64,000 nucleotides of DNA from Bifidobacterium sp. B4142 (lineage in GTDB: Bacteria > Actinomycetota > Actinomycetes > Actinomycetales > Bifidobacteriaceae): the NCBI RefSeq assembly GCF_026537325.1, contig NZ_JAFNMJ010000001.1, forward strand, positions 1-64,000, given 5' to 3'. This document shows, in pieces, positions 1,397 to 13,917 of the stretch; the first letter of the stretch is position 1, and the number at the start of each line of letters is the position of its first letter. A model generated the notes under the pieces. That model did not search any database and was not told where the DNA came from. It saw only the letters and a list, made by a program, of their open reading frames with translations. The position numbers were made by a program, and so were the translations under genes.

Positions 1397-3268
1397 TCAA
1401 TCGATCAGGCCCTCGAGCTGGCGGCGGTTGATCAGAGAGGGAATGACGCCTTCGCGGGCGACGCTGAAGCCGGCGGCCAGATTGGCGATATGGGCGGCTT
1501 TGTCCAGGGAACATCCGTTGCACAGATAGGAGGCCAGAGCACTGATGAAGGCATCGCTGGCGCCGGTGTCGTCGATTGCTCGGGTTTCGTGGGCTGGGAA
1601 GTCCTTGTGTCCGCTGGCAGTGACCAGGGTGCAGCCGTGCTCGCCCAGGGTGATGATAACCTTGCCCACCCCGCCGTCGATGAACTGTTTCGCCTTATCA
1701 ACCACGGGTTCTGGTCCATGTATCAGGGTGTTCAACTCGTTGAAATTCGGGATCAGGATGTCGATCGAAGACAGGAGGTCCTCGGGCAGGTGGTCGCAGG
1801 ATGATGGCTTGACGATGGTGACAGCCTGGTGGCGCTTGGCTGTTCTGCAGGCCTCGGCGACAGTATCCATGGGGATCTCTGTCTGGATCAGGCAGTAGCC
1901 GGTGTTTCTGAAGATCTGGTCACGCTCGGTGATGTCACCCGGGGTCAGGGATTCGTTGGCGCCCGCCACCAAGGAGATCATCGACTCGCCCTTGCTGTCG
2001 ACAAAGATGTAGGCTTTGCCCGTGTCCGCCCCGCTGATTCTGCGCACACCAGTGGTATCCACGTGGGCTTGCCTCATAGCTTTGTAAATGTAGTCTGCAG
2101 CGGGATCACTGCCGACATTGCCAATAAGGGAAACTTGATGCCGCAGCCTGGCCACGCCTACCGCCTGGTTGGTGGCCTTGCCCCCCGGTGTAGAGGCGAA
2201 ATTTCTGGTCGTGGTGGTCATGCCCGCCTTAGGCAGACTAGGAGCGGTCAGGTAGGTGTCCACGTTGATGCTGCCCACCACCACGATCTTCTTGCATCGC
2301 TGGTCCGGGGGTCGGCCAATAGTCTTCTCGCCGTCCAGGGCAAAAACATGCTCGAAGGTCTCGCTCGAATCAGACTCATGCTCGATGGCGCGGATGATCC
2401 GTCGACACAGATAGGCGCCGAAATCGGCATTGCGCATGACGTAGGACGATATCTCTGGGCTGCCTGGGTAGCGCAGATGCACGTTGGTGTCGTTCATCAG
2501 GGAGACCAGGGAGAGATCCTGGGGCAGGTGGTAATGCATGGATTCAGCGAACTGGAGGAATTCCAGGGCATGGTGGTAGTGGGATGCCACGATTCCGGTG
2601 ACGTGCCGGTTCTCCAGGACTTGGGTCAGGTCCTCGCCGATGGTTTCCAGGACCATGTCGGTGTGGTACTGGAGGTTATGGTCGAACAAGCAGCGTCGGT
2701 AGCCGTGCAGGAAGCTCTGGGTCCGCCTGCCTGGCGAGAGCAGGCAAGCGATGCTGGTGTGGTGGCGATTGATCAGCTCTTCAGTAAGACTGTAAGCAGC
2801 CTCCTCGTAGGGCATGAGCGCGGCCCGATCGTCCCCCAGGGGTCCAATGGTGAGTTCGGGGATCCTGCGTTCCTCGATTTTGCTTTTCAAGGCCAAGCTT
2901 GCGCGGTCGATCGGCTCCCATACCATGCCATCCACTCGATGTTCCAGAGCGGCCAGGATGTTTCGTTCCTCCTGGTCGTGATCGCCGTAGCTGTTGAAGA
3001 CCAGGGTGCCGTACCCCGACTTTTGTGCCTGCTGGATGATCCCATCCAAGGTGGAATCCATGGAGATGGATGAGCTCAGCAGGACTCCGATTCTCCAGGT
3101 GGTGGTGTTGGGCTTGGAGGATCCGTAGGGCGTGTAGTGGTACTTCCTGACCAGTTCAAGGACCCTGTCGCGCGTGGCGGCGGTAATGCTCGCGTCCCTG
3201 TGATTTACGATCTTGGAGACCGTCGATGTGGATACGCCGGCAAGCTCAGCAATGTCCTTGATATTCAT
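1397..3268 (-). CDS. LacI-type regulator fused to a PfkB/ribokinase-family sugar kinase
   Basis: One 623-residue frame joins two proteins. Residues 1-50 are a LacI HTH (IKDIAELAGVSTSTVSKIVN) and about 60-320 a LacI sensor domain. From about residue 325 there is a complete PfkB kinase: VVVGSINVDTYL at its start, PGGKATNQAVG as the ribokinase-type sugar-binding motif, and DDTGASDAFISAL as the catalytic and anion-hole motif. The usual GAGD is GASD here; the catalytic Asp is kept. The kinase should phosphorylate ribose or a similar sugar with ATP. The gene is divergent from an ECF and nucleoside hydrolase operon, so regulation of nucleoside salvage coupled to ribose phosphorylation is the simplest reading. 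That role is inferred; the domain fusion is seen directly. Confidence 0.9.
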   Translation of the reverse strand: MNIKDIAELAGVSTSTVSKIVNHRDASITAATRDRVLELVRKYHYTPYGSSKPNTTTWRIGVLLSSSISMDSTLDGIIQQAQKSGYGTLVFNSYGDHDQEERNILAALEHRVDGMVWEPIDRASLALKSKIEERRIPELTIGPLGDDRAALMPYEEAAYSLTEELINRHHTSIACLLSPGRRTQSFLHGYRRCLFDHNLQYHTDMVLETIGEDLTQVLENRHVTGIVASHYHHALEFLQFAESMHYHLPQDLSLVSLMNDTNVHLRYPGSPEISSYVMRNADFGAYLCRRIIRAIEHESDSSETFEHVFALDGEKTIGRPPDQRCKKIVVVGSINVDTYLTAPSLPKAGMTTTTRNFASTPGGKATNQAVGVARLRHQVSLIGNVGSDPAADYIYKAMRQAHVDTTGVRRISGADTGKAYIFVDSKGESMISLVAGANESLTPGDITERDQIFRNTGYCLIQTEIPMDTVAEACRTAKRHQAVTIVKPSSCDHLPEDLLSSIDILIPNFNELNTLIHGPEPVVDKAKQFIDGGVGKVIITLGEHGCTLVTASGHKDFPAHETRAIDDTGASDAFISALASYLCNGCSLDKAAHIANLAAGFSVAREGVIPSLINRRQLEGLID

Positions 3269-3518: not shown

Positions 3519-4316
3519 ATGAGCGCGCGATCGTTGTGGAGAGGAATCACTGCTCAATTCTCGACAAAATCCTTGGTGCTGATACCCATTGCGGTGGGCA
3601 TCAACCTCATCGGTGGGAGCCTGAGCTCCACCCTCAAACTGCCGCTCTTCCTGGATATGATTGGCACCACGGTTATCGCCTGCCTGTCCGGGCCTTGGGT
3701 GGCTGCCCTGTGCGGACTGCTGACTAATGTCTTCCTCGCCTTGGTAGCTAATCCGGTTTACCTGCCCTATGCGCTCTCCAGCGTTTTGTGCGGCCTGGTG
3801 ATCGGATACATGGTCAAGGCCGGGCTCTTCAAACGGATATGGGGAGTCGTCCTGGTCTGGCTGGCCTGCGCCCTGGTCAACACGGTAACCGCCTCTCTGA
3901 TCACCGTGCTCGTCTACGGGGGCGCCACCGGAGTCAATGGCACTTCGGTCCTCACAGCTGCGCTGGTGGTGGCTGTGAAGAACATCGTCATTTCAGTGCT
4001 CTCCTCCTCCATGCTGGAGAATCTGATCGACAAGGGCATCACCGTCCTGATCGCTTATGTGATTGTGCGTCGAATCCCCAAGCGCTTCCTGAGCCAGTAC
4101 GCCTTGGACGGCAGCGATGACCAGTCCGATCTGGACGATTTGGATGACTTGGATGAGGATGAAGACGAGGATGAACGCGAAGCGACTGGAGCGTCCAGTC
4201 TGGCGAGTTCAGCACGGCCGGGGAAGATCGACGGCGCAGCAGAAGCTGATGGTGGCACATCGACAGGCGACTCAGTGGCCTTGGACTATGAACGCACCCA
4301 AAGGTCTGAACGCTGA
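3519..4316 (+). CDS. ECF transporter S component, probably nucleoside or ribose related
   Basis: A 265-residue membrane protein with about five to six hydrophobic segments in residues 15-190, then a hydrophilic, strongly acidic tail (DDLDDLDEDEDEDERE near residue 208). It resembles the S component at 10800, sharing INLIGGxLSSxLKLPLxxDxIG near the N-terminus and the conserved LTNVFLALVANPVYLPYAL region. S components bind the substrate and dock onto a T/A1/A2 energy module, and all those genes follow. The nucleoside hydrolase in the same operon suggests a nucleoside substrate; this is inference. Its last base overlaps the T gene start. The long acidic tail is absent from the paralogue. Confidence 0.75.
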   Translation: MSARSLWRGITAQFSTKSLVLIPIAVGINLIGGSLSSTLKLPLFLDMIGTTVIACLSGPWVAALCGLLTNVFLALVANPVYLPYALSSVLCGLVIGYMVKAGLFKRIWGVVLVWLACALVNTVTASLITVLVYGGATGVNGTSVLTAALVVAVKNIVISVLSSSMLENLIDKGITVLIAYVIVRRIPKRFLSQYALDGSDDQSDLDDLDDLDEDEDEDEREATGASSLASSARPGKIDGAAEADGGTSTGDSVALDYERTQRSER

Positions 4317-5134
4317 TGCCTGGTCCTGCATCGAACGGGATTCCTGATTCTCCCCTGGCCCGCATGCATCCCATGGCCAAGATTGCTGGAGTGTGTTCCT
4401 TGGGCCTTGCGACTTTGGTTTGGCCGGACTTTACCATGGGTCTGGGAATCGTCGTCATACTTTTCGTAGCAGCGGCTCTGGCCCGGGTGCTCAGGCCCTT
4501 CACTGGGGTTATGTTTGGGTTCGGCATTCCCATCACGCTCATGCTGCTGTTTATTCAGGGATGCTACAGCCCAAAAAACACCAAGGTCATTCTTGATCTG
4601 GGATTTGCCGAGCTGGGTCTTGAAGGCAGCCTCTACGCAGCCAAAATCGTAGTAACCCTTTTGGTTTTCCTAGGGTCTTTCTATCTGACCAATAAAACTA
4701 CCTACATGGGTCGCCTGGTTGCGGCTCTGACACAAATAGGCGTGCCATCCAAGATCGGCTACCTGATCCTGGCCAGTCTGAATGTGGTTCCCCAGATGCA
4801 GCGCAGGATTGCGGTCATCGAGCAGTCGCAGCACGCGCGTGGCTTGGAGACCGGCGGCGGCTTGATTTCCCGGACGCGGGCCTTCCTGCCCCTGCTCGGA
4901 CCGGTTGTTCTTTCCTCCCTGACGGATTCGCAGGAGCGCGGGATGACCTTGGAGACCCGCGGATTCGGTATCCGTAGGGTGCGGCAGACCAGCTATCTTG
5001 AGGTGGTTTGGCGGCGCAGCGACACCGTGATGACCATCCTGTTCACCGTTTTTCTGGTGCTTGCCCTGGTGCTCGGCTGCCTTTCTCGCACAGGTCTGGT
5101 CACCTTCGCAATCCAGTGGGGAGGTCGGGCATGA
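4316..5134 (+). CDS. ECF transporter T component (transmembrane coupling protein)
   Basis: This 272-residue membrane protein has the two short Ala-Arg-Gly-like coupling motifs of EcfT proteins: QHARGLETGG near residue 175 and ETRGFGIRR near residue 215. It also has hydrophobic segments near the N-terminus (VCSLGLATLVW, IVVILFVAAALA), in the middle and at the C-terminus. EcfT links the S component to the two ATPases through those Arg motifs. The gene overlaps the S gene by one base and the first ATPase gene by ATGA, so the operon is probably translationally coupled. Confidence 0.85.
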   Translation: MPGPASNGIPDSPLARMHPMAKIAGVCSLGLATLVWPDFTMGLGIVVILFVAAALARVLRPFTGVMFGFGIPITLMLLFIQGCYSPKNTKVILDLGFAELGLEGSLYAAKIVVTLLVFLGSFYLTNKTTYMGRLVAALTQIGVPSKIGYLILASLNVVPQMQRRIAVIEQSQHARGLETGGGLISRTRAFLPLLGPVVLSSLTDSQERGMTLETRGFGIRRVRQTSYLEVVWRRSDTVMTILFTVFLVLALVLGCLSRTGLVTFAIQWGGRA

Positions 5135-5979
5135 CCGAGGTCATACGAGTGGAGGACTTCTCTTTCAGATACCGTGATGCCAATCGGACCGCTTTGAAGC
5201 GGGTGAGCTTCAGCGTGGAGCAGGGCAGCTTCTTCTGCATCGTCGGAGCCAACGGATCGGGAAAGTCGACCCTGTGCAACGCCCTGGTCGGTCTGATTCC
5301 TCACTATTTCGTAGGTAAATCCAAGGGGAGTGTCCAGATCGAGGACATCGACGTAGCTGCTTCGAGCATTGCCGATCTGTCCAGACATGTGGGCTTGGTC
5401 TTTCAGAACCCCTTCAATCAGCTCTCCTATACGGCCGGGACCGTAGCCGAGGAACTGGCCTTCGGGCTGGGCAACCATGGGGTTCCACGTGAAACCATGC
5501 ATGCCAAGGTGGCTCGGGTGGCGGCCCTTATGCATATCGAGGATCTGCTCGACAAGAACCCTCTGGAACTCTCCGGTGGACAGGTGCAGCGGGTGGCCTT
5601 GGGCTCGACCTTGATCATGGAACCGGACATCCTGGTTCTGGATGAATGCACAGCCCAGCTGGACCCGCTAGGCAGCGAGGAGATCTTCGACATTGTCAAG
5701 CGGCTCAACCAGGAGGGGATCACCGTAGTCATGGTCGATCACGATATGGAGCGGGTCGCTCGATGCGCCGATCAGGTCATGGTTCTGGGGGCAGGCCGGG
5801 TTCGCTCCATAGGTACTCCCGGGGAGGTCTTCACTGATCCCGAGACCGCGAAGTGGGGGATTGACATACCGGATTACGTCAAACTCGGCAGGGGTTTGCA
5901 GGACGCTGGATTCGACCTGCCGGATCTGCCCGTACGCGAGGACCAGGCGGTACGCATGATTCGGGAGGCGTTGCGGTGA
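5131..5979 (+). CDS. ECF transporter ATPase subunit A1 (consensus signature)
   Basis: A 282-residue ABC ATPase starting at ATG 5131, inside the TGA of ecfT. Walker A is GANGSGKST near residue 39, the signature LSGGQVQR is at about 147 and the H-loop is MVDHDME. Walker B reads LVLDECTAQLDP, with Cys173 where DEPT is usual. It should pair with the next gene product to drive import by the S and T components. It has the intact LSGGQ, while the partner does not, so the two ATP sites of the dimer are probably unequal. Confidence 0.9.
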   Translation: MTEVIRVEDFSFRYRDANRTALKRVSFSVEQGSFFCIVGANGSGKSTLCNALVGLIPHYFVGKSKGSVQIEDIDVAASSIADLSRHVGLVFQNPFNQLSYTAGTVAEELAFGLGNHGVPRETMHAKVARVAALMHIEDLLDKNPLELSGGQVQRVALGSTLIMEPDILVLDECTAQLDPLGSEEIFDIVKRLNQEGITVVMVDHDMERVARCADQVMVLGAGRVRSIGTPGEVFTDPETAKWGIDIPDYVKLGRGLQDAGFDLPDLPVREDQAVRMIREALR

Positions 5980-6833
5980 AGATCGATCTGGAGCATCTGG
6001 AGTACGTCTACCCGCATGGCCATCGTGCCCTGGACGGAGTGAATCTGACCCTCGAAGGTGATCAGCCTGTAGCGCTGATCGGTCAGAACGGCGCTGGCAA
6101 GACCACCCTGGCCAAACATCTGAACGGCATCCTTAGACCAACCAAGGGTCGCATCTTGATTGACGGCGTCGATCTGGCTACAGCGAACACGGCCCAGTGG
6201 GCCCGGAAGGTGGGGTACGTCTTTCAGAATCCCGACGATCAGCTCTTTCTGGACAGTGTGCGCAAGGAATTCGCGTTCGGTCCCCGGCAGCTTGGTTTCG
6301 ATCAGGATCTGATAGCGCGACGTATGGAGCAGGTTGCTGGGTTGGTGGGTCTGGCGGACCGGTTGGACGATCATCCTTTCGATCTGAGCCCTACCGAGAA
6401 GAAATTCTGTGCCATCGGCTCCGTCCTCATGATGGATACGGGTACCGTAGTCTTCGACGAGCCCACATGCGGACAGGACAAGGCGGGCGATGATCGGCTG
6501 GCGGCCATCATCGCCCGTCTTCGGGGCCAAGGCAGACTCTGCATCACCATTTCCCACGACATGAAGTTTGTCGCCCGCAACTTCCCCAGGGTTGTGCTCA
6601 TGCAGCATGGCCGGGTCCTGCTGGATGGCAGTCGCGAGGAGGTCTTCGCCCGGGACGATGTGCTTGAGCAGGCCTATGTGACGCCTCCGCCCATCACTCG
6701 GGTGGCCCGGCAAATCGGCTTGGATGGCCCGGTCTTCACCGTCTCTGCCTTTGTCGATGCAGCCTGGCGGGCCAAATCGGGGAGCAGGAATTTGAGTTTG
6801 GATACGACAAGAGCAAAAGGAGTGAAGCAATGA
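5976..6833 (+). CDS. ECF transporter ATPase subunit A2 with degenerate signature motif
   Basis: The 285-residue ABC ATPase starts at GTG 5976, overlapping the A1 stop codon. Walker A (GQNGAGKTT), the Q-loop (GYVFQNPDDQLF), Walker B (VVFDEPTCGQD) and the H-loop (ITISHDMKF) are all intact. The LSGGQ signature is replaced by LSPTEKK at about residues 137-143. The same region is degenerate in the paralogue at 13099, so this looks like a subfamily trait. In an A1/A2 dimer the LSPTEKK face would sit opposite the A1 Walker A, leaving one canonical and one degenerate ATP site. Confidence 0.88.
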   Translation: MKIDLEHLEYVYPHGHRALDGVNLTLEGDQPVALIGQNGAGKTTLAKHLNGILRPTKGRILIDGVDLATANTAQWARKVGYVFQNPDDQLFLDSVRKEFAFGPRQLGFDQDLIARRMEQVAGLVGLADRLDDHPFDLSPTEKKFCAIGSVLMMDTGTVVFDEPTCGQDKAGDDRLAAIIARLRGQGRLCITISHDMKFVARNFPRVVLMQHGRVLLDGSREEVFARDDVLEQAYVTPPPITRVARQIGLDGPVFTVSAFVDAAWRAKSGSRNLSLDTTRAKGVKQ

Positions 6834-7753
6834 CCAGACCACTGATCATCGACACGGACCCTGGCATCGATGATGCTGCGGCCATTACGATGCTGGTCGA
6901 CGAGCCCAGCTTCGACATCAGGCTGATAGCCTCGGTGTCAGGCAATGTGGGCATCGGCCACACCACCAACAATGCCCTGAAGCTGCTGACCTTCCTGGGC
7001 AGGCGCATCCCCGTGGCCCGTGGCGCTGCGGCCCCGCTCATGCGTGACAACAGGTTCGCCACCGAAGCCCATGGCAAGTCAGGGATGGGGTCATTCGTCT
7101 TCCCTGAGCCTGACGCCAGCCTGCTGACCGAGAACAATGCGGTCCTGGAGGAGCGGCGGGTGCTTCTGGAGAGCGATGAGCCAGTCACCATCCTGACCCT
7201 GGGCCCTCTGACCAACATCGCCCTGCTGCTGGCCACCTTCCCGGAGGTCAAGGACCACATCGACCGGATCGTCATGATGGGAGGTTCCACCGGGCGCGGC
7301 AACATCGGAGTCTATGGCGAGTTCAACATCTCCGTCGATCCTGAAGCTGCCAAGATGGTCTTCCGCAGCGGGCTGCCTGTGACCATGGTTGGTCTGGACA
7401 TCGGTCGCAAGGCCCATCTGGTCGCCGGAGATCTGGACGATCTGGACGCAGCCGGCGAAGTGGGCGGCATGGTCGCATCCCTCTTCCGGTCGTACGACGG
7501 TGGACACATCGAAGAGGGGATCAAGATGTACGACCCTTCGGCCGCCATGGTCCTGCTCCAGCCAGACCTGTTCACCATGCGCGAGGCCTTAGTAGACGTC
7601 GAAATCTCCAGCCCGCTCACCCTGGGCGCCACGGTGGTCGATTACGACGGCATCTTGAGCGACAAGGCCAACGCCAGCGTCTGCGTGGACGTGGATGTGG
7701 ACGGATTCCGCTCCGCCTTTGTCGACAGGGTCGGCCGAGTTCGCCGTCAGTAG
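6830..7753 (+). CDS. Nucleoside hydrolase (IU-NH superfamily), His to Tyr variant
   Basis: A 307-residue nucleoside N-ribohydrolase, normal length for the family. The N-terminal Ca2+/ribose-binding motif is DTDPGIDDAAAI (residues about 6-17), and LGPLTNIALL lies near residue 125. At the C-terminal metal site the family usually has HDP; here it is MYDPSAA with Tyr234. In IU-type enzymes that His helps the purine leave, so the base preference may differ. It cleaves nucleosides to base plus ribose in the cytoplasm. It overlaps the A2 gene by ATGA, so import and cleavage are coupled, and the ribose could feed the ribokinase domain encoded at 1397-3268. Confidence 0.9.
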   Translation: MTRPLIIDTDPGIDDAAAITMLVDEPSFDIRLIASVSGNVGIGHTTNNALKLLTFLGRRIPVARGAAAPLMRDNRFATEAHGKSGMGSFVFPEPDASLLTENNAVLEERRVLLESDEPVTILTLGPLTNIALLLATFPEVKDHIDRIVMMGGSTGRGNIGVYGEFNISVDPEAAKMVFRSGLPVTMVGLDIGRKAHLVAGDLDDLDAAGEVGGMVASLFRSYDGGHIEEGIKMYDPSAAMVLLQPDLFTMREALVDVEISSPLTLGATVVDYDGILSDKANASVCVDVDVDGFRSAFVDRVGRVRRQ

Positions 7754-7793
7754 CTTCCGCATTGAGAAGAACCGAAAGGAAATTAAAGAAAAA

Positions 7794-9242
7794 ATGAGCG
7801 AGTCAACTGTCTCCGAGGAGCAGAAGAACGGTATACCCGTTCCCGAGGAGGGGACTCCGGAGTTCGCGAAAATGAACAAGATGGCCCGAGTGGCCATCCC
7901 GGTGGTCCTGATCATCTTCACCCTGGGCGTGCTTCAGCAGCAGGCCTTCGGCATGATCTACGTGAACATCGGCAAGCAGCTGAACCAGACTAATCTGGCT
8001 CCGCTGATCACCTCGCTGCCGGGCATCATTCTGGGAATCGTCTGCGTCATCTACGGCTCCCTGGGCGATTTTGTCTCCCTGAAGAAGATGATGATCCTGG
8101 GTACGATCGTCTTCGTGCTGGGTTCGATTCTGGGGTGCTTCGGCACCTTCAGCATCTGGATCGTCATCGCGGCCCGCGTGGTGCAGTCGGCCGGCTGGCA
8201 GGTCTCCGGCTCCATCTTCCTGGTTCTGGTCTCCAAGTACGTGGAGAAGAAAAAGCGCGTCATCTGGTACGGCGTCTTTGTAGCGGTCTTCCGCTTCGCT
8301 GCCGCCCTGGGAGTCTTCCTTGCTGGCTACATGACCCTGCTTGACTGGCGCTGGCTCTTCGGCGTGGGCGTTGTGGCCGTCTTCTTCATTCCCGTTCTGG
8401 CCAAGAACCTGCCCGACCAGCATGCAGCTGGCGTCAAGATCGACGGAATCGGTTTTACGCTGATCGGACTGTTCGCCGCTTCGGTGACCATGTTCTTCAC
8501 GGACATCAACTGGGGTTGGGGCATTGCCTGCATCGTGACCCTGGTGGCTTTCCTGGTCTATGTCAACAAGGCCAGCAATCCCTTCATCACTCCGAAGATG
8601 CTGACCAACCCGGCCTTCGCCATGACTATGACCGTCATCTTCGTCGGCTACTTCTTCAGCTACACCCTGAACGCGGGCGTCAATGCCATTGGTCTGAACG
8701 TGTACGGCATCGACTCCTCTAAGGTTTCCAACCTGCTGGTCTGGTCCATCATCCTGGCTGGCATCATGGGATTTGCTGCCGGTCCGATCATCCAGAAGAT
8801 CGGACGCAAGGCTTCGGTCATCCTGGCTCTGGCCTGCATGGGCGGCGGCCTGATCGCCATCGCCTTCCTGATCCCCGCCGGCAAGATCTGGGCCCTGGCT
8901 GTGGCGCCCTGCATCTACTACTTCGGCACCTCCTTCTTCTACCAGCCCATCGTTGACACCGCGACCCTGACCGTGGCTCCTGAGGAGTCCGGCCGTGTGC
9001 TCGGCTTCAATGACCTGCTCCAGGCCATCACCGGCTCTATTGGCGTCGCCCTCTTCGGCCAGCTCATGGCCAACGGATCCATGGGTTCGGGCAGCTTGGC
9101 CGGCACTGCGCAAGGTCTGGCATCGACCTACGCCAACGTCTTCATGATCGGCGGCGTGATCATCCTGCTGGGCTTGGTGCTCTTCATCTGCTCAATGAAG
9201 ATGATCTATAGCCACTCCCGCGTGGCCGCGGACGAGGATTGA
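7794..9242 (+). CDS. MFS transporter, 14-TM DHA2-like
   Basis: A 482-residue protein starting at ATG 7794, chosen because GAAAGGA lies about 12 bases upstream and the N-terminus MSESTVSEEQ is hydrophilic. About 14 hydrophobic helices follow, with a DHA2-like loop (YGSLGDFVSLKKMMILG) after the second helix. The substrate is unknown. As the last gene of a nucleoside operon it could export bases or import nucleosides. A second copy of its C-terminal 100 residues, with about seven substitutions, is stranded in the pseudogene at 43536-44323. The DNA after the stop codon is also similar at the two sites. Confidence 0.85.
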   Translation: MSESTVSEEQKNGIPVPEEGTPEFAKMNKMARVAIPVVLIIFTLGVLQQQAFGMIYVNIGKQLNQTNLAPLITSLPGIILGIVCVIYGSLGDFVSLKKMMILGTIVFVLGSILGCFGTFSIWIVIAARVVQSAGWQVSGSIFLVLVSKYVEKKKRVIWYGVFVAVFRFAAALGVFLAGYMTLLDWRWLFGVGVVAVFFIPVLAKNLPDQHAAGVKIDGIGFTLIGLFAASVTMFFTDINWGWGIACIVTLVAFLVYVNKASNPFITPKMLTNPAFAMTMTVIFVGYFFSYTLNAGVNAIGLNVYGIDSSKVSNLLVWSIILAGIMGFAAGPIIQKIGRKASVILALACMGGGLIAIAFLIPAGKIWALAVAPCIYYFGTSFFYQPIVDTATLTVAPEESGRVLGFNDLLQAITGSIGVALFGQLMANGSMGSGSLAGTAQGLASTYANVFMIGGVIILLGLVLFICSMKMIYSHSRVAADED

Positions 9243-9266
9243 TCCCTCGAGCTGCTGATTGAGAGA

Positions 9267-9304
9267 GCCGGGTCTGGGGTTTGCCCCCCTGGGCCTGGCC
9301 TTTG
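9267..9304 (+). terminator. Hairpin after the first nucleoside operon
   Basis: GCCGGGTCTGGGG (9267-9279) can pair with CCCCTGGGCCTGGC (ending 9299) in a stem of about 13 bp with several G-U pairs, followed by a short TTTGT. The same region is partly conserved behind the truncated MFS copy at 44324-44375, which supports an original terminator role. Confidence 0.5.
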
Positions 9305-9805
9305 TCGATATGGTGCAGAATCGAAGAAGATTCAACAAGGCGCATCGGCGGTTATCGATTAACGGCTCAAGCGGACTTGCCAGAAAGGACTGGCGATTGC
9401 TGAGTATGTAGTCGCAATCGTGTATAACGGTCTCATGGGACAGTCAGGCATGGCGGTGCCGACGGCACTATTTGACAAGGGCATTCGGTCCTTTGCCATG
9501 CCCTCCCATAATCAATTGAAAAAGCTGACGGACCATGGTCAAAGGGCCACGGACGGTCTTGCACAGAGGCTGCATCTGCATACCCCGGTCCATCATCATC
9601 ACCATCATCATTTTGCCAGCCATATGGCTGTCCTGGAGCCTGCACATATCTGAATCTGAGGCCTGAATCTGAATGGCGGCTTCCGATTAACCGCAAAGGC
9701 CAAGCACCAGAACCATCACAGTCAGCAGTAAGAGCAGAATCCTTTATCTATCCGGCAGAATACAGGCTTCAGGCAGGTCCTGAACACGAAAGGAGAGACA
9801 GGCAC
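9305..9805. other. Non-coding gap before the second nucleoside operon
   Basis: About 500 bp between the terminator hairpin and the leader frame at 9806. No convincing gene is seen. A His-rich frame near 9590 comes from a CAT/CAC run and has no ribosome binding site or family resemblance. A promoter for the second operon should lie here but no clear -35/-10 pair stands out. Confidence 0.5.
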
Positions 9806-9838
9806 ATGAACGATACCGAAGGTTGGCGGACCAGATGA
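9806..9838 (+). CDS. Ten-codon upstream leader frame coupled to the nucleoside hydrolase
   Basis: ATG 9806 has a strong AAGGAGAG nine bases upstream and opens a ten-codon frame (MNDTEGWRTR) ending at TGA 9836-9838. That TGA overlaps the ATG at 9835 of the next gene (ATGA). The hydrolase ATG has no Shine-Dalgarno of its own, so it may be translated by coupling to this leader. An alternative is that the hydrolase starts at TTG 9823. No database support is known to me. Confidence 0.5.
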   Translation: MNDTEGWRTR

Positions 9839-10782
9839 GCCCTGAACCGATCATTATCGATTGCGATCCCGGCTGCGATGATGCTCTGGCCATCATCCTC
9901 GCCTTGCATTCGCAGGAGTGCGACCTTAAGGCCCTATGCACGGTGGCGGGCAATGGGGCGATTGACAATACCACGCGCAATGCCTTGAACATTCTTGCCT
10001 TGTGTGATCGGTCGGACATCCCGGTATATCGGGGCTGCTCAAGGGCTTTGGACGATAGGCAGCCCGCGACCGTCGAGGCTTTCGGGGATGACGGATTGGG
10101 TGGGTATGCCCAGTCCATTGCCTCCGACAGCCATGAGCAGCCAAAAGATGCTGTCGCTTCTCTGGTGGAATATGTCAACAGCCATCCTGGTGAGATAACG
10201 CTCTTTGCTACAGGGCCCTGCACTAATATCGCCTGTGCCATCCGCAGCAGCGCCGAATTTGCCTCCAACCTCAAGCGCCTCATCATCATGGGCGGTGCGA
10301 AATATACAGGGAATGTAAGTCCTGTGGCGGAATACAATTTCTGGGCCGACCCGCAAGCAGCCCATGAAGTTCTGCAGGCAGGGACCGCGGATGTGACTGT
10401 AATCGGCCTTGACGTCACCAATAAGATTGCGCTCACCTGCGAGATGCGGGAGAGAATCCGTCTGGTCGGCACCAGATTGTCCCGGTTCCTGTATGACATC
10501 ACCCGCGAGGGCTTGGATGATAACTGGCGGTCCAGGCATAAGGCTGTGGCGCCCATGCATGACGTGCTGACGGTCGCCTATATGCTTGATCCAAGCATAC
10601 TTGAAGTAAGGCCGGCGAATATCGATGTCGTTGTCGATGGTTTGGCCAGAGGACAGTCGATTACCGATATCGATGGGCATTGGCATGAAGGTGAATGCAA
10701 CGCGGGATATGCGGCCAGCGTTGATGCCGACCGGTTCTATCGTCTGCTGTTCACCACGATTTTTGACGAAGAGATTGAGTAA
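9835..10782 (+). CDS. Nucleoside hydrolase (IU-NH superfamily)
   Basis: This 315-residue protein (from ATG 9835) is an inosine-uridine-type nucleoside hydrolase. It has DCDPGCDDALAI at residues 8-19, ATGPCTNIACAI near residue 125 and the canonical MHDVLTVAYMLDP at the C-terminal site, with His242 present. It should hydrolyse imported ribonucleosides to ribose and base. It is the first gene of a second ECF operon, whereas in the first operon the hydrolase follows the transporter genes. The two hydrolases are distant paralogues and differ at the His/Tyr position, so they may prefer different bases. TTG 9823 is an alternative start. Confidence 0.9.
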   Translation: MSPEPIIIDCDPGCDDALAIILALHSQECDLKALCTVAGNGAIDNTTRNALNILALCDRSDIPVYRGCSRALDDRQPATVEAFGDDGLGGYAQSIASDSHEQPKDAVASLVEYVNSHPGEITLFATGPCTNIACAIRSSAEFASNLKRLIIMGGAKYTGNVSPVAEYNFWADPQAAHEVLQAGTADVTVIGLDVTNKIALTCEMRERIRLVGTRLSRFLYDITREGLDDNWRSRHKAVAPMHDVLTVAYMLDPSILEVRPANIDVVVDGLARGQSITDIDGHWHEGECNAGYAASVDADRFYRLLFTTIFDEEIE

Positions 10783-10799
10783 GCGAGGAAGGGAAAATT

Positions 10800-11480
10800 A
10801 TGAAGAAAGCCAACAAGCGAAGCAAATTATCCTTGATGGTCCTGCTGCTGATACCAGTGGCCATCGCCATCAATATCGTCGGCGGCCAGCTTACTTCGGT
10901 GCTGAAGCTGCCACTGGACATGGATACCATCGGCGTCATACTGGTGGGGGCTCTGGTCGGGCCTATTCCAGCTGCAATAACGGGAGTCCTGACCAATCTG
11001 ATAAACGGGATTTTCGATCCCACCCTGATCCCTTATGCAATCTGCGCCTTCTTCATCGGGCTGGCTGCCGGTCTTCTGGCCAAGTACAACATGATGACCA
11101 AGGTATGGAAGCTGATTGTTTCAGGCATCGTTCTCGGACTTGTCGGCACTATCACGGCTACGCCCATCACTGTCTTCTTCTTTGGCGGCGCATCAGGAGG
11201 TGGCGCCTCCATGATCGCTGCTGGGCTTATGGCGACTGGGCAGAAAATACTGACATCCGTATTGTCCGTATACATCGTCACCGAAAGCGCCGGTAAGATT
11301 CTATCGGTCTTCATCGCCTGGCTGATCGTCAAGGCTATTCCGGCCCGTTCCCTGATCAAGTATCCCTTTGGCGACAAATACATAAAGAAGAAGGTTGCAA
11401 AGACCATTGGGCAGGGGCCTTCCCAGGATTCCGCTGCTGATGCGCCTGCTTCCGCTGGTCTGCCGTCTTCGGAGGACTGA
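10800..11480 (+). CDS. ECF transporter S component (paralogue of 3519)
   Basis: A 226-residue membrane protein with an ATG start behind GAGGAAGGG. It has five to six hydrophobic segments and shares with the S protein at 3519 the early AINIVGGQLTSVLKLPLD region, DTIGVILVGALVGP, and LTNLINGIFDPTLIPYA. It lacks the long acidic tail of its paralogue and ends in an Ala/Ser/Pro-rich stretch. It should be the substrate-binding subunit of the second importer. The upstream hydrolase suggests nucleosides; the substrate is inferred. Confidence 0.75.
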   Translation: MKKANKRSKLSLMVLLLIPVAIAINIVGGQLTSVLKLPLDMDTIGVILVGALVGPIPAAITGVLTNLINGIFDPTLIPYAICAFFIGLAAGLLAKYNMMTKVWKLIVSGIVLGLVGTITATPITVFFFGGASGGGASMIAAGLMATGQKILTSVLSVYIVTESAGKILSVFIAWLIVKAIPARSLIKYPFGDKYIKKKVAKTIGQGPSQDSAADAPASAGLPSSED

Positions 11481-11485
11481 GTTGC

Positions 11486-12244
11486 ATGCCTGGTCATAAC
11501 GTCATTGCCAATCTGTATCCGCTTACGAAGTTTTACATGGCTGTGGTGCTCATGGCTGTGTCTTTCATGCTGCCAGGAATAGCGAGCAAGCTCATCTGCT
11601 TCTTGTTCATCAATGCTCTGGCAGCCGCGAGCGGAGTCTGGTCTGTTTTCATCAGAAGGGAGCTGGAAACGGTGGGCGTGCTTTTCCTCATCCTCTTTGT
11701 CATTCAAACGCTTTTCTACCCGGATGCAAGACGCATACTGTTCACCTTCTGGATCTTCAGCGTAAAGTACGAGGGCATCATGTTCGCCTTGAACCTGGGA
11801 CTCATGCTCCTGTGCGCCGGTGGAAGCCTGATATGGTTCTTTGCCGTCACCAAGCAGAAGGATTTTGTGCTTTCTCTTGAAAAGGCGGGAATGAGTCCAA
11901 AGGCTTCCTACGTGGTGCTTTCCACCTTGCAGATAGTGCCAGTGCTCAGGAGGAAATCCAAGACCATCATGAATGCTCAGAGGGCCCGAGGAGTCGAGAC
12001 TGAAGGCGGTGTGTTGACCCGCGCCAAGGTGTTTCTCCCGACCATGATTCCGCTGGTCCTCAGCTCGATCGCCGGTACTGAGGAACGCGCGCTCACGCTG
12101 GAGGCACGGGGGTTCTCGTCGAGCAGGACTCCTACTCATCTGGAGGACATTAAAGCCACTCCTGCAGATAAGGTGGCAGTGATCCTTATTACGGTTGCAT
12201 TCGTCGCATTGATCGCCGGAAGGATGGCGCTTTGGCTTATATAG
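11486..12244 (+). CDS. ECF transporter T component
   Basis: A 252-residue membrane protein with hydrophobic N-terminal helices (FYMAVVLMAVSFML), a middle pair (MFALNLGLMLLCAGGSLIWFF) and a C-terminal helix. The two coupling motifs are QRARGVETEGG near residue 170 and LEARGFSS near 210. It starts five bases after the S gene stop. It matches the T protein at 4316 in length, motif order and the SxASYVVLSTLQIVP-like segment before the first Arg motif. Confidence 0.85.
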   Translation: MPGHNVIANLYPLTKFYMAVVLMAVSFMLPGIASKLICFLFINALAAASGVWSVFIRRELETVGVLFLILFVIQTLFYPDARRILFTFWIFSVKYEGIMFALNLGLMLLCAGGSLIWFFAVTKQKDFVLSLEKAGMSPKASYVVLSTLQIVPVLRRKSKTIMNAQRARGVETEGGVLTRAKVFLPTMIPLVLSSIAGTEERALTLEARGFSSSRTPTHLEDIKATPADKVAVILITVAFVALIAGRMALWLI

Positions 12245-13095
12245 AACTCAAGGATGTGACCTATACCTACCCCTTGGCCGACCGCCCGAGTCTGAGCCAT
12301 GTTGATCTGAAGATTGAAAAGGGCAGGTTCTATGCGGTCATCGGCGCGAACGGCTCCGGCAAGACCACGCTGTGCAACTTGATTCGTGGGTTCATTCCAG
12401 AGTTCTACCAGGGTGAGCTGCTTGGAGAAGTTATTTTCGATGGCAAGCCCTTGTCTGAGTATGACAGTGGAGACCTGGCCTGGCGCATCGGGTATATATT
12501 CCAGAATCCCTTCAATCAGATCACGGGGGCTCGTGACACCGTATTCGCAGAGATCGCCTACGGCTTGGAAAACATGGGACTGCCTGTCTGCCAAATCCGG
12601 GAACGCGTGAACTCGGTCATGGAGACCACTGGCATCGCCGATCTCAAAGATAAAAACCCCTTTGAGCTTTCCGGAGGCCAGCAGCAGAGGGTTGCCTTCG
12701 CCTCTGTGCTGGTTCTGGAGCCTGATGTTTTCGTGATCGATGAGCCGACTTCGCAGTTGGACCCCCGTGAGACCAAGCGTGTGTTTGACATCATCGACGG
12801 AATGAAGGCGATGGGGAAAACCATCATACTGGTCGAGCACAAGATGGAACTGGTCGCCAGATACTGCGACGAGGTCATAGTCCTGTCCAATGGCAAATTG
12901 GTATGCACTGGTGAAAAGCATGACATCCTGTCGCGTGTCGAACTGCTTGACGACGGTGTGATGTTGCCGCAAGCGGTTCTCCTGGCGGATACTCTGCGCA
13001 AGCAAGGCAGGCCAATCCAGGGCAATCCGATCACGTTGTCGGAAATACTGCCCCTGCTGTCCAAGCAAATCGGCTTTGCCGGAAAGGAGGGCTGA
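12232..13095 (+). CDS. ECF transporter ATPase subunit A1
   Basis: A 287-residue ABC ATPase read from TTG 12232, inside the end of the T gene, followed at once by AYIELKDVTYTYP, the normal N-terminus. Walker A is GANGSGKTT near residue 38, the signature LSGGQQQR is at about 146, Walker B is FVIDEPTSQLDP near 167 and the H-loop is LVEHKME. All motifs are canonical, unlike the partner A2. It ends with GGAAAGGAGG, which provides the Shine-Dalgarno for the next gene. Confidence 0.88.
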   Translation: MAYIELKDVTYTYPLADRPSLSHVDLKIEKGRFYAVIGANGSGKTTLCNLIRGFIPEFYQGELLGEVIFDGKPLSEYDSGDLAWRIGYIFQNPFNQITGARDTVFAEIAYGLENMGLPVCQIRERVNSVMETTGIADLKDKNPFELSGGQQQRVAFASVLVLEPDVFVIDEPTSQLDPRETKRVFDIIDGMKAMGKTIILVEHKMELVARYCDEVIVLSNGKLVCTGEKHDILSRVELLDDGVMLPQAVLLADTLRKQGRPIQGNPITLSEILPLLSKQIGFAGKEG

Positions 13096-13098
13096 GCA

Positions 13099-13917
13099 TT
13101 GCCCATTATTGAATTCCGAAATGTGACATTCGCCTATCCCAATGGGTACTCGGCTGTCGAGAACCTCAGCTTCTCCGTGGAAGCAGGTGCCAGGATCGCG
13201 ATCCTAGGGCAGAACGGAGCCGGGAAGACTACCACAGTCAAAATGATGGACGGCCTCCTGCGCCCCTCATCCGGGAAGGTGCTGATTGACGGGGAAGATA
13301 CCAGGGAGCACACTACGGCCCAGATGTCCAAAATCGCCGGGTACGTCTTTCAGAATCCCGATGATCAGATCTTCCACAACACTGTTGGCGAGGAGATAGC
13401 CTTCGGTCCGAAAATGCTCAAGCTTGATGCGGATACGGTGGAGGAGCAGAGCAAATGGGCCGCGACCATATGCGGGTTGGACGGGCAGATGGAAGAGAAC
13501 CCCTATGATCTACCCCTGTCGGCCAGAAAGATCGTGACCATTGCCTCCGTTCTTGCCATGCGCACGAGAATCGTGATTTTAGATGAGCCTACCGCAGGGC
13601 AGGATTATCGGGGCCTGAACAGACTCGGTGCCATTCTGGAGGAATTGACCAATCGCGGTGTGACAGTGATCACCATTACCCATGACATGCAATTTGCAGC
13701 CGAGCATTTCAGCACCTTCTTCGTCATGGCGCATAAGAAGCTGCTGAGGACAGGTACGGCTAAGGAGATATTCCAGGATCAGGCCCTGCTTGATGAAAGC
13801 ATGCTTGAGCGGCCTTTTGCCAGCGAGCTTGCCTTGCAGCTCGGTCTTGGAGCGGACATTTGTACTCGGGAAGAGCTGGCAAAGCGTCTGCTGGCTGGCG
13901 GTGGCATGAAACCGTAG
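13099..13917 (+). CDS. ECF transporter ATPase subunit A2 with degenerate signature motif
   Basis: A 272-residue ABC ATPase starting at TTG 13099, eight bases after GGAAAGGAGG. Walker A (GQNGAGKTT), Q-loop (GYVFQNPDDQIF), Walker B (IVILDEPTAGQD) and H-loop (ITITHDMQF) are intact. The signature reads LPLSARK at residues 138-144 where LSGGQ is expected. This parallels LSPTEKK in the first operon's A2. Both retain QNPDDQ and GQD after Walker B, so they form a recognisable pair of asymmetric ECF ATPases. Confidence 0.88.
   Translation: MPIIEFRNVTFAYPNGYSAVENLSFSVEAGARIAILGQNGAGKTTTVKMMDGLLRPSSGKVLIDGEDTREHTTAQMSKIAGYVFQNPDDQIFHNTVGEEIAFGPKMLKLDADTVEEQSKWAATICGLDGQMEENPYDLPLSARKIVTIASVLAMRTRIVILDEPTAGQDYRGLNRLGAILEELTNRGVTVITITHDMQFAAEHFSTFFVMAHKKLLRTGTAKEIFQDQALLDESMLERPFASELALQLGLGADICTREELAKRLLAGGGMKP

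Follow-up and report, generated by a model that had tools for sequence, protein, structure and literature searches.

Two ECF operons with altered A2 ATPases

The first 64,000 nucleotides of contig NZ_JAFNMJ010000001.1 of Bifidobacterium sp. B4142, here called the window, contain two operons (a and b) for energy-coupling factor (ECF) transporters, both with the gene order S-T-A1-A2 (Table 1). Each operon also includes a gene for a nucleoside-cleaving enzyme (PF01156 hydrolase), which in operon a follows A2 and is itself followed by a major facilitator superfamily (MFS) gene, and in operon b precedes S. Each operon probably specifies a dedicated ECF importer whose most likely substrates are ribonucleosides and in which one composite ATP site would be working and the other degenerate.

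Both A1 ATPases carry the canonical LSGGQ signature, and at the corresponding position the A2 of operon a (A2a) has LSPTEKK and that of operon b (A2b) has LPLSARK, as a model that saw only the letters (the sequence-only reading) had proposed. The Walker A, Q-loop, Walker B and H-loop motifs are intact in all four ATPases; in the A2 subunits, three of these motifs, whose preservation had likewise been reported, read GQNGAGKTT (Walker A), DEPTCGQD or DEPTAGQD (Walker B) and TISHD or TITHD (H-loop). A2a and A2b are 40% identical over 253 residues in a gapless alignment, the C-loop region included. A misreading or frameshift concealing an LSGGQ was rejected, given this ungapped alignment and the lack of LSGGQ in the other two forward frames around the A2 C-loops. 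The sequence-only reading had also noted a GQD motif shared by both A2 subunits; it has no value as a marker, since a GQD D-loop was also found in a signature-keeping ECF-type ATPase of the same genome (L158).

The remaining components support the assignment to ECF transporters. Both S components score above the PF12822 cut-off, as expected for the ECF fold, and the solved chains hit by the S profile include one labelled folate S-component (E 2e-8) and 5d0y_A, listed as a conserved hypothetical membrane protein (E 4.4e-10). Neither S reaches the NCBIfam CD3073 cut-off (NF045596), so they are named CD3073-like only. Both T components are above the PF02361 cut-off and contain two ARG-type motifs each (ARG/TRG and ARG/ARG), which we take to be the coupling motifs. 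For the two ECF-type ATPases of each operon, the best NCBIfam models are ECF ATPases, with all four proteins under the equivalog cut-offs, and EcfA1 and EcfA2 are among the best solved-structure matches. It has to be considered that the asymmetric module gates or senses and no longer drives transport, uptake being left to the MFS protein: an MFS gene lies between the window operons, and MFS-like genes adjoin many Bifidobacterium relatives and locus L112. This is scarcely credible, since the operons retain a complete ATP site along with S and a T that has both coupling motifs.

Table 1. Genes of the two ECF operons and their neighbours in the window
Feature	Coordinates	Strand	Details
LacI-type regulator-PfkB (ribokinase-like) kinase fusion	1397..3268	-	623 aa; Pfam LacI 1-46, Peripla_BP_3 162-299, PfkB 325-611
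Operon a S component, CD3073-like	3519..4316	+	PF12822 39.8 bits (cut-off 30.7); NF045596 101.4 bits (cut-off 180)
Operon a T component (EcfT)	4316..5134	+	PF02361 63.3 bits; ARG and TRG motifs at residues 174 and 214
Operon a ATPase A1 (A1a)	5131..5979	+	Canonical LSGGQ at 5569-5583, residues 147-151
Operon a ATPase A2 (A2a)	5976..6833	+	285 aa; C-loop LSPTEKK at 6384-6404, residues 137-143
Operon a nucleoside hydrolase, RihC-like	6830..7753	+	PF01156 285.3 bits; PRK10768 376.5 bits, slightly under the equivalog cut-off of 382
MFS transporter between operons a and b	7695..9242	+	PF07690 85.5 bits; start of the mechanical open reading frame (ORF) probably too far upstream
Operon b nucleoside hydrolase	9823..10782	+	PF01156 291.8 bits
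Operon b S component, CD3073-like	10800..11480	+	PF12822 43.9 bits; NF045596 105 bits (cut-off 180)
Operon b T component (EcfT)	11486..12244	+	PF02361 70.8 bits; two ARG motifs
Operon b ATPase A1 (A1b)	12232..13095	+	Canonical LSGGQ at 12667-12681, residues 146-150
Operon b ATPase A2 (A2b)	13099..13917	+	272 aa; C-loop LPLSARK at 13510-13530, residues 138-144

The asymmetry in related transporters

Related systems were collected through the S component. It was present in 15 of 27 genomes of the genus and in 11 of 396 genomes of the phylum, six of the latter being weak matches; when genome contigs were scanned with four S sequences, 120 matches were confirmed, of which the best 80 loci were used (Bacillota, Actinomycetota, Chloroflexota and Spirochaetota). 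These 80 comprised 64 loci with an intact A1/A2 pair, three with a broken-frame pair, five on short contigs and eight S genes of Bacillus relatives lacking an adjacent ECF pair. Plasmid records added two Enterococcus raffinosus systems, two from Haladaptatus and one from Streptomyces. In total, 153 pairs of ATP-binding cassette (ABC) ATPases were reduced to 128 distinct ones: 85 S-linked pairs (same-strand S-profile match at E 1e-5 no more than 5 kb away), 37 other pairs accompanied by a T component and six further pairs. The contig scan contributed 55 of the S-linked pairs; the window, the plasmids and the G-numbered genomes supplied the other 30. Close relatives from Bifidobacterium and Enterococcus make up much of the set. 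Five of the weak phylum matches (L037-L040, L042) had no ABC pair adjoining; the pair at the sixth (L041, E 2.8e-4), whose two ATPases both have LSGGQ, was assigned to the other ECF pairs.

Across the 85 distinct S-linked pairs, from bacteria of four phyla and from haloarchaea, LSGG was found in every A1 and in no A2. Close homologues all carrying LSGGQ would have refuted the sequence-only reading, and none of the 85 A2 subunits carries it. The A2 C-loop types include LxxTEKK, LPxSxRK, LGLPWRK, LTAPQRK and ITASERQ, and the readable A2 C-loop of the three broken-frame pairs also differs from LSGGQ. The pattern is insensitive to redundancy: thinning at 70, 60 and 50% A2 identity left 46, 29 and 16 pairs, each time with LSGG in all A1 and no A2 sequences, and at 60% (A1 29/29, A2 0/29) the H-loop His was kept in 19 A1 and 29 A2 sequences. 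A peculiarity confined to Bifidobacterium was ruled out by the same asymmetry in other phyla and in haloarchaea.

Ordinary ECF ATPases served as controls. In 12 genomes with the asymmetric system, the best 30 loci of ECF ATPase matches included 13 ordinary EcfA pairs, of whose 26 domains 25 read LSGG and one LSSG. Only five pairs at these loci had a signature-less A2, with the same motifs as the S-linked pairs already known from those genomes. Sixteen of the 22 ECF ATPase matches in the genome of the window were read, and besides the two A2 subunits all domains covering the C-loop had LSGG, except for one MSGG and one FSGG. The 37 other ECF pairs are mainly the best A2-like matches, hence a conservative control. 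Among them, A2 kept the second glycine in 34 (13 of 15 after thinning at 60%) and the full LSGG in five.

One-sided decay of the composite ATP sites

An ABC ATP site takes its signature from one domain and its Walker A and B, Q-loop and H-loop from the other (PMC7756269). Because each site uses the signature of the partner domain, loss of the A2 C-loop damages the site that holds the nucleotide of A1. By this geometry, site I (A1 motifs with the A2 C-loop) is the damaged one, and site II (A2 motifs with the A1 LSGGQ) is canonical, the nucleotide of A2 meeting an intact A1 signature. Site II was complete in all 85 S-linked pairs and site I in one.

Further losses fall on the same side. A fixed division of labour predicts that every additional loss would strike the site already spoiled by the A2 C-loop, and the observed pattern matches: the Q-loop Gln, Walker B DE or H-loop His was lost in 22 of the 85 A1 subunits and in none of the A2. 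In A1, Gln was kept in 73, DE in 83 and His in 68 (17 without His, one row, L120, having a gap at this position, and two without DE). In an A1 tree (58 thinned rows), the His states imply at least four changes and the Gln states at least three. On two Haladaptatus plasmids A1 and A2 are fused (L063:5068-6813 and L066:5047-6795); in both A1 halves the Walker B DE is replaced by RQ or QQ, and His and Gln are lost, with LSGGQ kept. These haloarchaeal losses in Walker B, H-loop and Q-loop all lie in one composite site.

The repeated loss of A1 H-loop and Q-loop residues would also be expected if site I were dispensable and drifting, its nucleotide having no function. Such neutral decay is very unlikely, since the A1 Walker A Lys was kept in all 85 pairs and the Walker B DE in all but the two noted above, and since the A2 C-loop itself changes only synonymously in 11 orthologues (see below). 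Taken together, these three observations suggest that selection acts on ATP binding at site I, and the conserved Lys points to continued binding of ATP at this site.

Constraint on the altered C-loop and its ancestry

The altered C-loop is itself conserved. In 11 Bifidobacterium A2a orthologues (L052 left out), eight of the ten codons of DLSPTEKKFC vary synonymously and none non-synonymously. For wider comparison, A2a-like and A2b-like rows were thinned and picked by identity outside the C-loop. In the 32 A2a-like rows, all with LSGGQ in A1, the residues K, K, F and C were each kept in 31, and positions 2-4 vary; in the 17 A2b-like rows, R and K were kept throughout, and position 5 ranks with the columns that vary most. 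In canonical ABC dimers, signature positions 2-4, together with position 5, contact the gamma-phosphate. The ATP-contact positions of the A2 C-loop have been freed, the scaffold behind them being kept.

The same columns bear on a different explanation, in which the A2 C-loop is a non-canonical working signature, a basic pair (KK or RK) replaces LSGGQ and both sites hydrolyse ATP. Basic residues do occupy both post-LSGGQ positions in all A2a-like (32/32) and A2b-like (17/17) rows. Nevertheless, positions 2-4 vary among the A2a-like rows and from one subclade to another, position 5 of the A2b-like rows is not fixed either, and the A1 residues of site I are lost in 22 pairs with the opposite site untouched, which makes a working signature improbable.

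A tree of A2 sequences was built without the C-loop and H-loop columns. It contained a clade of 28 rows, 27 of them lacking the second glycine (ultrafast bootstrap/SH-like approximate likelihood ratio test, UFBoot/SH-aLRT, 98/97), which included a 12-row subclade with the A2a type, represented by the 99% identical orthologue L043 (100/99), and a 10-row subclade with A2b (100/97); Bacillota members were found in both. The presence of A2a and A2b in one supported degenerate clade makes a single loss most likely, so that they do not count as two cases. The window operons are thus old lineages, most likely with one degenerate ancestor in common. The sequence-only reading had seen selected asymmetry in two diverged paralogues; the conservation and constraint behind this idea were borne out, and the independence of the two was not. 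Two more S-linked A2 groups, of five and three rows, fell outside the 28-row clade and may represent separate losses. The tree needs five changes, and none of 200 bootstrap trees (0%) needs only one; a single clade of all 35 S-linked A2 rows was not rejected by the approximately unbiased (AU) test (p 0.289).

Proposed mechanism

The asymmetry itself is well supported by the sequence comparisons. It appears to have arisen before the clade spread through Actinomycetota, Bacillota, Chloroflexota, Spirochaetota and haloarchaea, and to have been kept by selection. In the proposed mechanism, site II should hydrolyse ATP, and site I would bind ATP through the intact Walker A of A1, with slow or no turnover. 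Site I could then act as a hinge or latch holding ATP, while hydrolysis at site II would drive release and reset of the S component. The comparisons show the sequences themselves, their conservation and the one-sidedness of the losses; the identity of the hydrolysing site, site occupancy, stoichiometry and substrate are inferred. It is quite possible, though short of probable, that a widespread ECF branch runs on a single catalytic site, the ATP of the A1 site serving as a hinge over several cycles and one ATP of the A2 site being spent per toppling and reset of S.

Several observations weigh against this interpretation. A change of the catalytic Glu or of the H-loop His, common but not universal in degenerate sites, was not seen in the window: A1a and A1b keep Glu, Gln and His, so that site I differs from a canonical site in the C-loop only. 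This would fit a working signature as well, and some hydrolysis at site I is possible. One S-linked A2 of the 85, from Streptomyces (L064, LSLGDRK), keeps the second glycine. Partial asymmetry was also found in the 37 other ECF pairs, where site I was complete in 23 and site II in 36. Likewise, five of the 43 pairs without a nearby S lack the second glycine: LNFFQKQ (twice) and LSKADRS among the 37 with T, and LGLSERK (L166/L217) and LNFFQKQ (L172) among the six without T. Asymmetry thus comes in degrees in this part of the ECF family, and the S-linked branch is its extreme. On the substrate side, the published RbsR operator consensus (RbsR2/RbsR3 regulons) had no match with three or fewer mismatches in the window.

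Link to nucleosides

A nucleoside hydrolase gene was found within 6 kb of 64 of the 85 S-linked pairs. Three of the remaining 21 have one slightly beyond 6 kb, and several are on short contigs. Neighbours were looked up in 12 of these 21, and in eight a PNP_UDP_1 phosphorylase (L112, L114, L117, L134) or a PfkB kinase (L070, L100, L122, L124) was found; no phosphorylase or PfkB gene was detected among the ORFs tested at L033, L064, L069, L118, L120 and L131. None of the 37 other ECF pairs had a hydrolase within 6 kb, a weak control in that only six of the 37 have 4 kb of flank on both sides.

The sequence-only reading had proposed checking whether the C-loop loss tracks the nucleoside hydrolase neighbourhood. 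The association is present in most pairs, but the loss follows the S-component and transporter lineage more closely. As a determinant of signature loss the hydrolase was not supported, since relatives without a hydrolase also lack the signature.

Ribonucleosides are the likely substrates of both importers, judging from the neighbouring genes. Divergent from operon a is the gene for a LacI-PfkB fusion, and a similar protein (45-97% identity) adjoins operon a in relatives, L035 included. For bifidobacteria, PMC4746261 predicts that rihC hydrolases, ribokinase and ribonucleoside transporters are under the control of RbsR-type LacI regulators; the terms 'energy-coupling' and 'ecf' do not occur in its text.

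The S family may be broader than nucleosides, given the neighbours at two loci. In a Chloroflexota member, a TenA-family gene lies beside the nucleoside phosphorylase gene near the ECF genes (L134:12359-13903), and the substrate there may be thiamine-related; at L122 a gene for a SIS-domain protein is a neighbour.

Comparison with known systems

The gene order S-T-A1-A2, a PF12822 S, a PF02361 T with two ARG-type motifs and two ATPases are shared with group I (dedicated) ECF transporters. In the solved ECF-FolT2 complex of L. delbrueckii all important motifs are said to be present in both ATPases (PMC4820897), whereas the A2 subunits of the window lack the signature. Close by in the A2 tree lie other ECF pairs of the same phylum with A2 LTKGERQ or LSRGQRQ, which have a reduced signature and in some cases Gln at the A1 H-loop; they differ in keeping the second glycine, as in the 34 control pairs mentioned above. 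Among such same-phylum loci, L181, L182 and L184-L192 have mostly fused pairs in which the A1 H-loop His is replaced by Gln (e.g. VIEQKVA) and A2 has LSRGQ or LNRG; they are a milder version of the same asymmetry.

Degenerate sites are already known in exporters and in RbsA-type importers. In heterodimeric ABC exporters the degenerate site often also lacks the catalytic Glu; the systems described here differ in this residue, kept in 83 of the 85 A1 subunits, and in not having the exporter fold. ABCB2/B3, CFTR, ABCC1 and Pdr5 likewise combine one deviant and one intact composite site, and the degenerate Pdr5 signature LNVEQ is comparable (PMC7756269). The fused importer ATPases RbsA and NupO belong to Type II importers with a binding protein and have lost the second Walker A lysine, whereas all Walker A lysines are kept here. 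They carry ribose and nucleosides. Like the present systems they are importers, and one site of their duplicated ATPase is degenerate (PMC11466899, where ECF transporters are set aside).

In searches of open-access papers, no description of a degenerate site in an ECF transporter and no paper naming CD3073 was found. On the sharing of work between the two ECF ATP sites, ECF-FolT2 under turnover-like conditions was seen with one ATPase carrying ATP and its partner ADP, and non-synchronous binding and hydrolysis were suggested (PMC10368641). A family with one site dismantled from both sides of the dimer, and the other complete, would be a ready-made system for assigning roles to the sites, within a widespread nucleoside-linked ECF class for which no characterised member was found. 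If this branch does run on a single catalytic site, it would form an ECF class in which one-site mechanics are obligatory, and would offer a natural experiment on the heavy futile ATP hydrolysis of canonical modules.

Other loci

Some additional loci were found during the searches. In the Bifidobacterium relative G011, an S gene split between two frames (L061:9792-10360, minus strand) has no adjacent ECF ATPase and is apparently a remnant; an intact operon a is present elsewhere in this genome.

The eight Bacillus-like loci with a CD3073-like S and no nearby ECF ATPase pair are L133, L135, L136, L138, L139, L140, L144 and L145. At L138, the only one of them whose neighbours were read, the S gene lies near genes for a LysR regulator, a GH1 glycosidase and a ROK protein, which may point to a sugar as substrate and to a shared ECF module.

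An operon with a QueT-like S (a label based on a reading of its sequence), T, A1 and an A2 with LNFFQKQ and the Walker B region DEPNTSQD was found at L215:7665-11201 (minus strand), and also at L213 and L214. A close relative, L169, falls inside the degenerate A2 clade, and the one-site module may thus also serve a different type of substrate.

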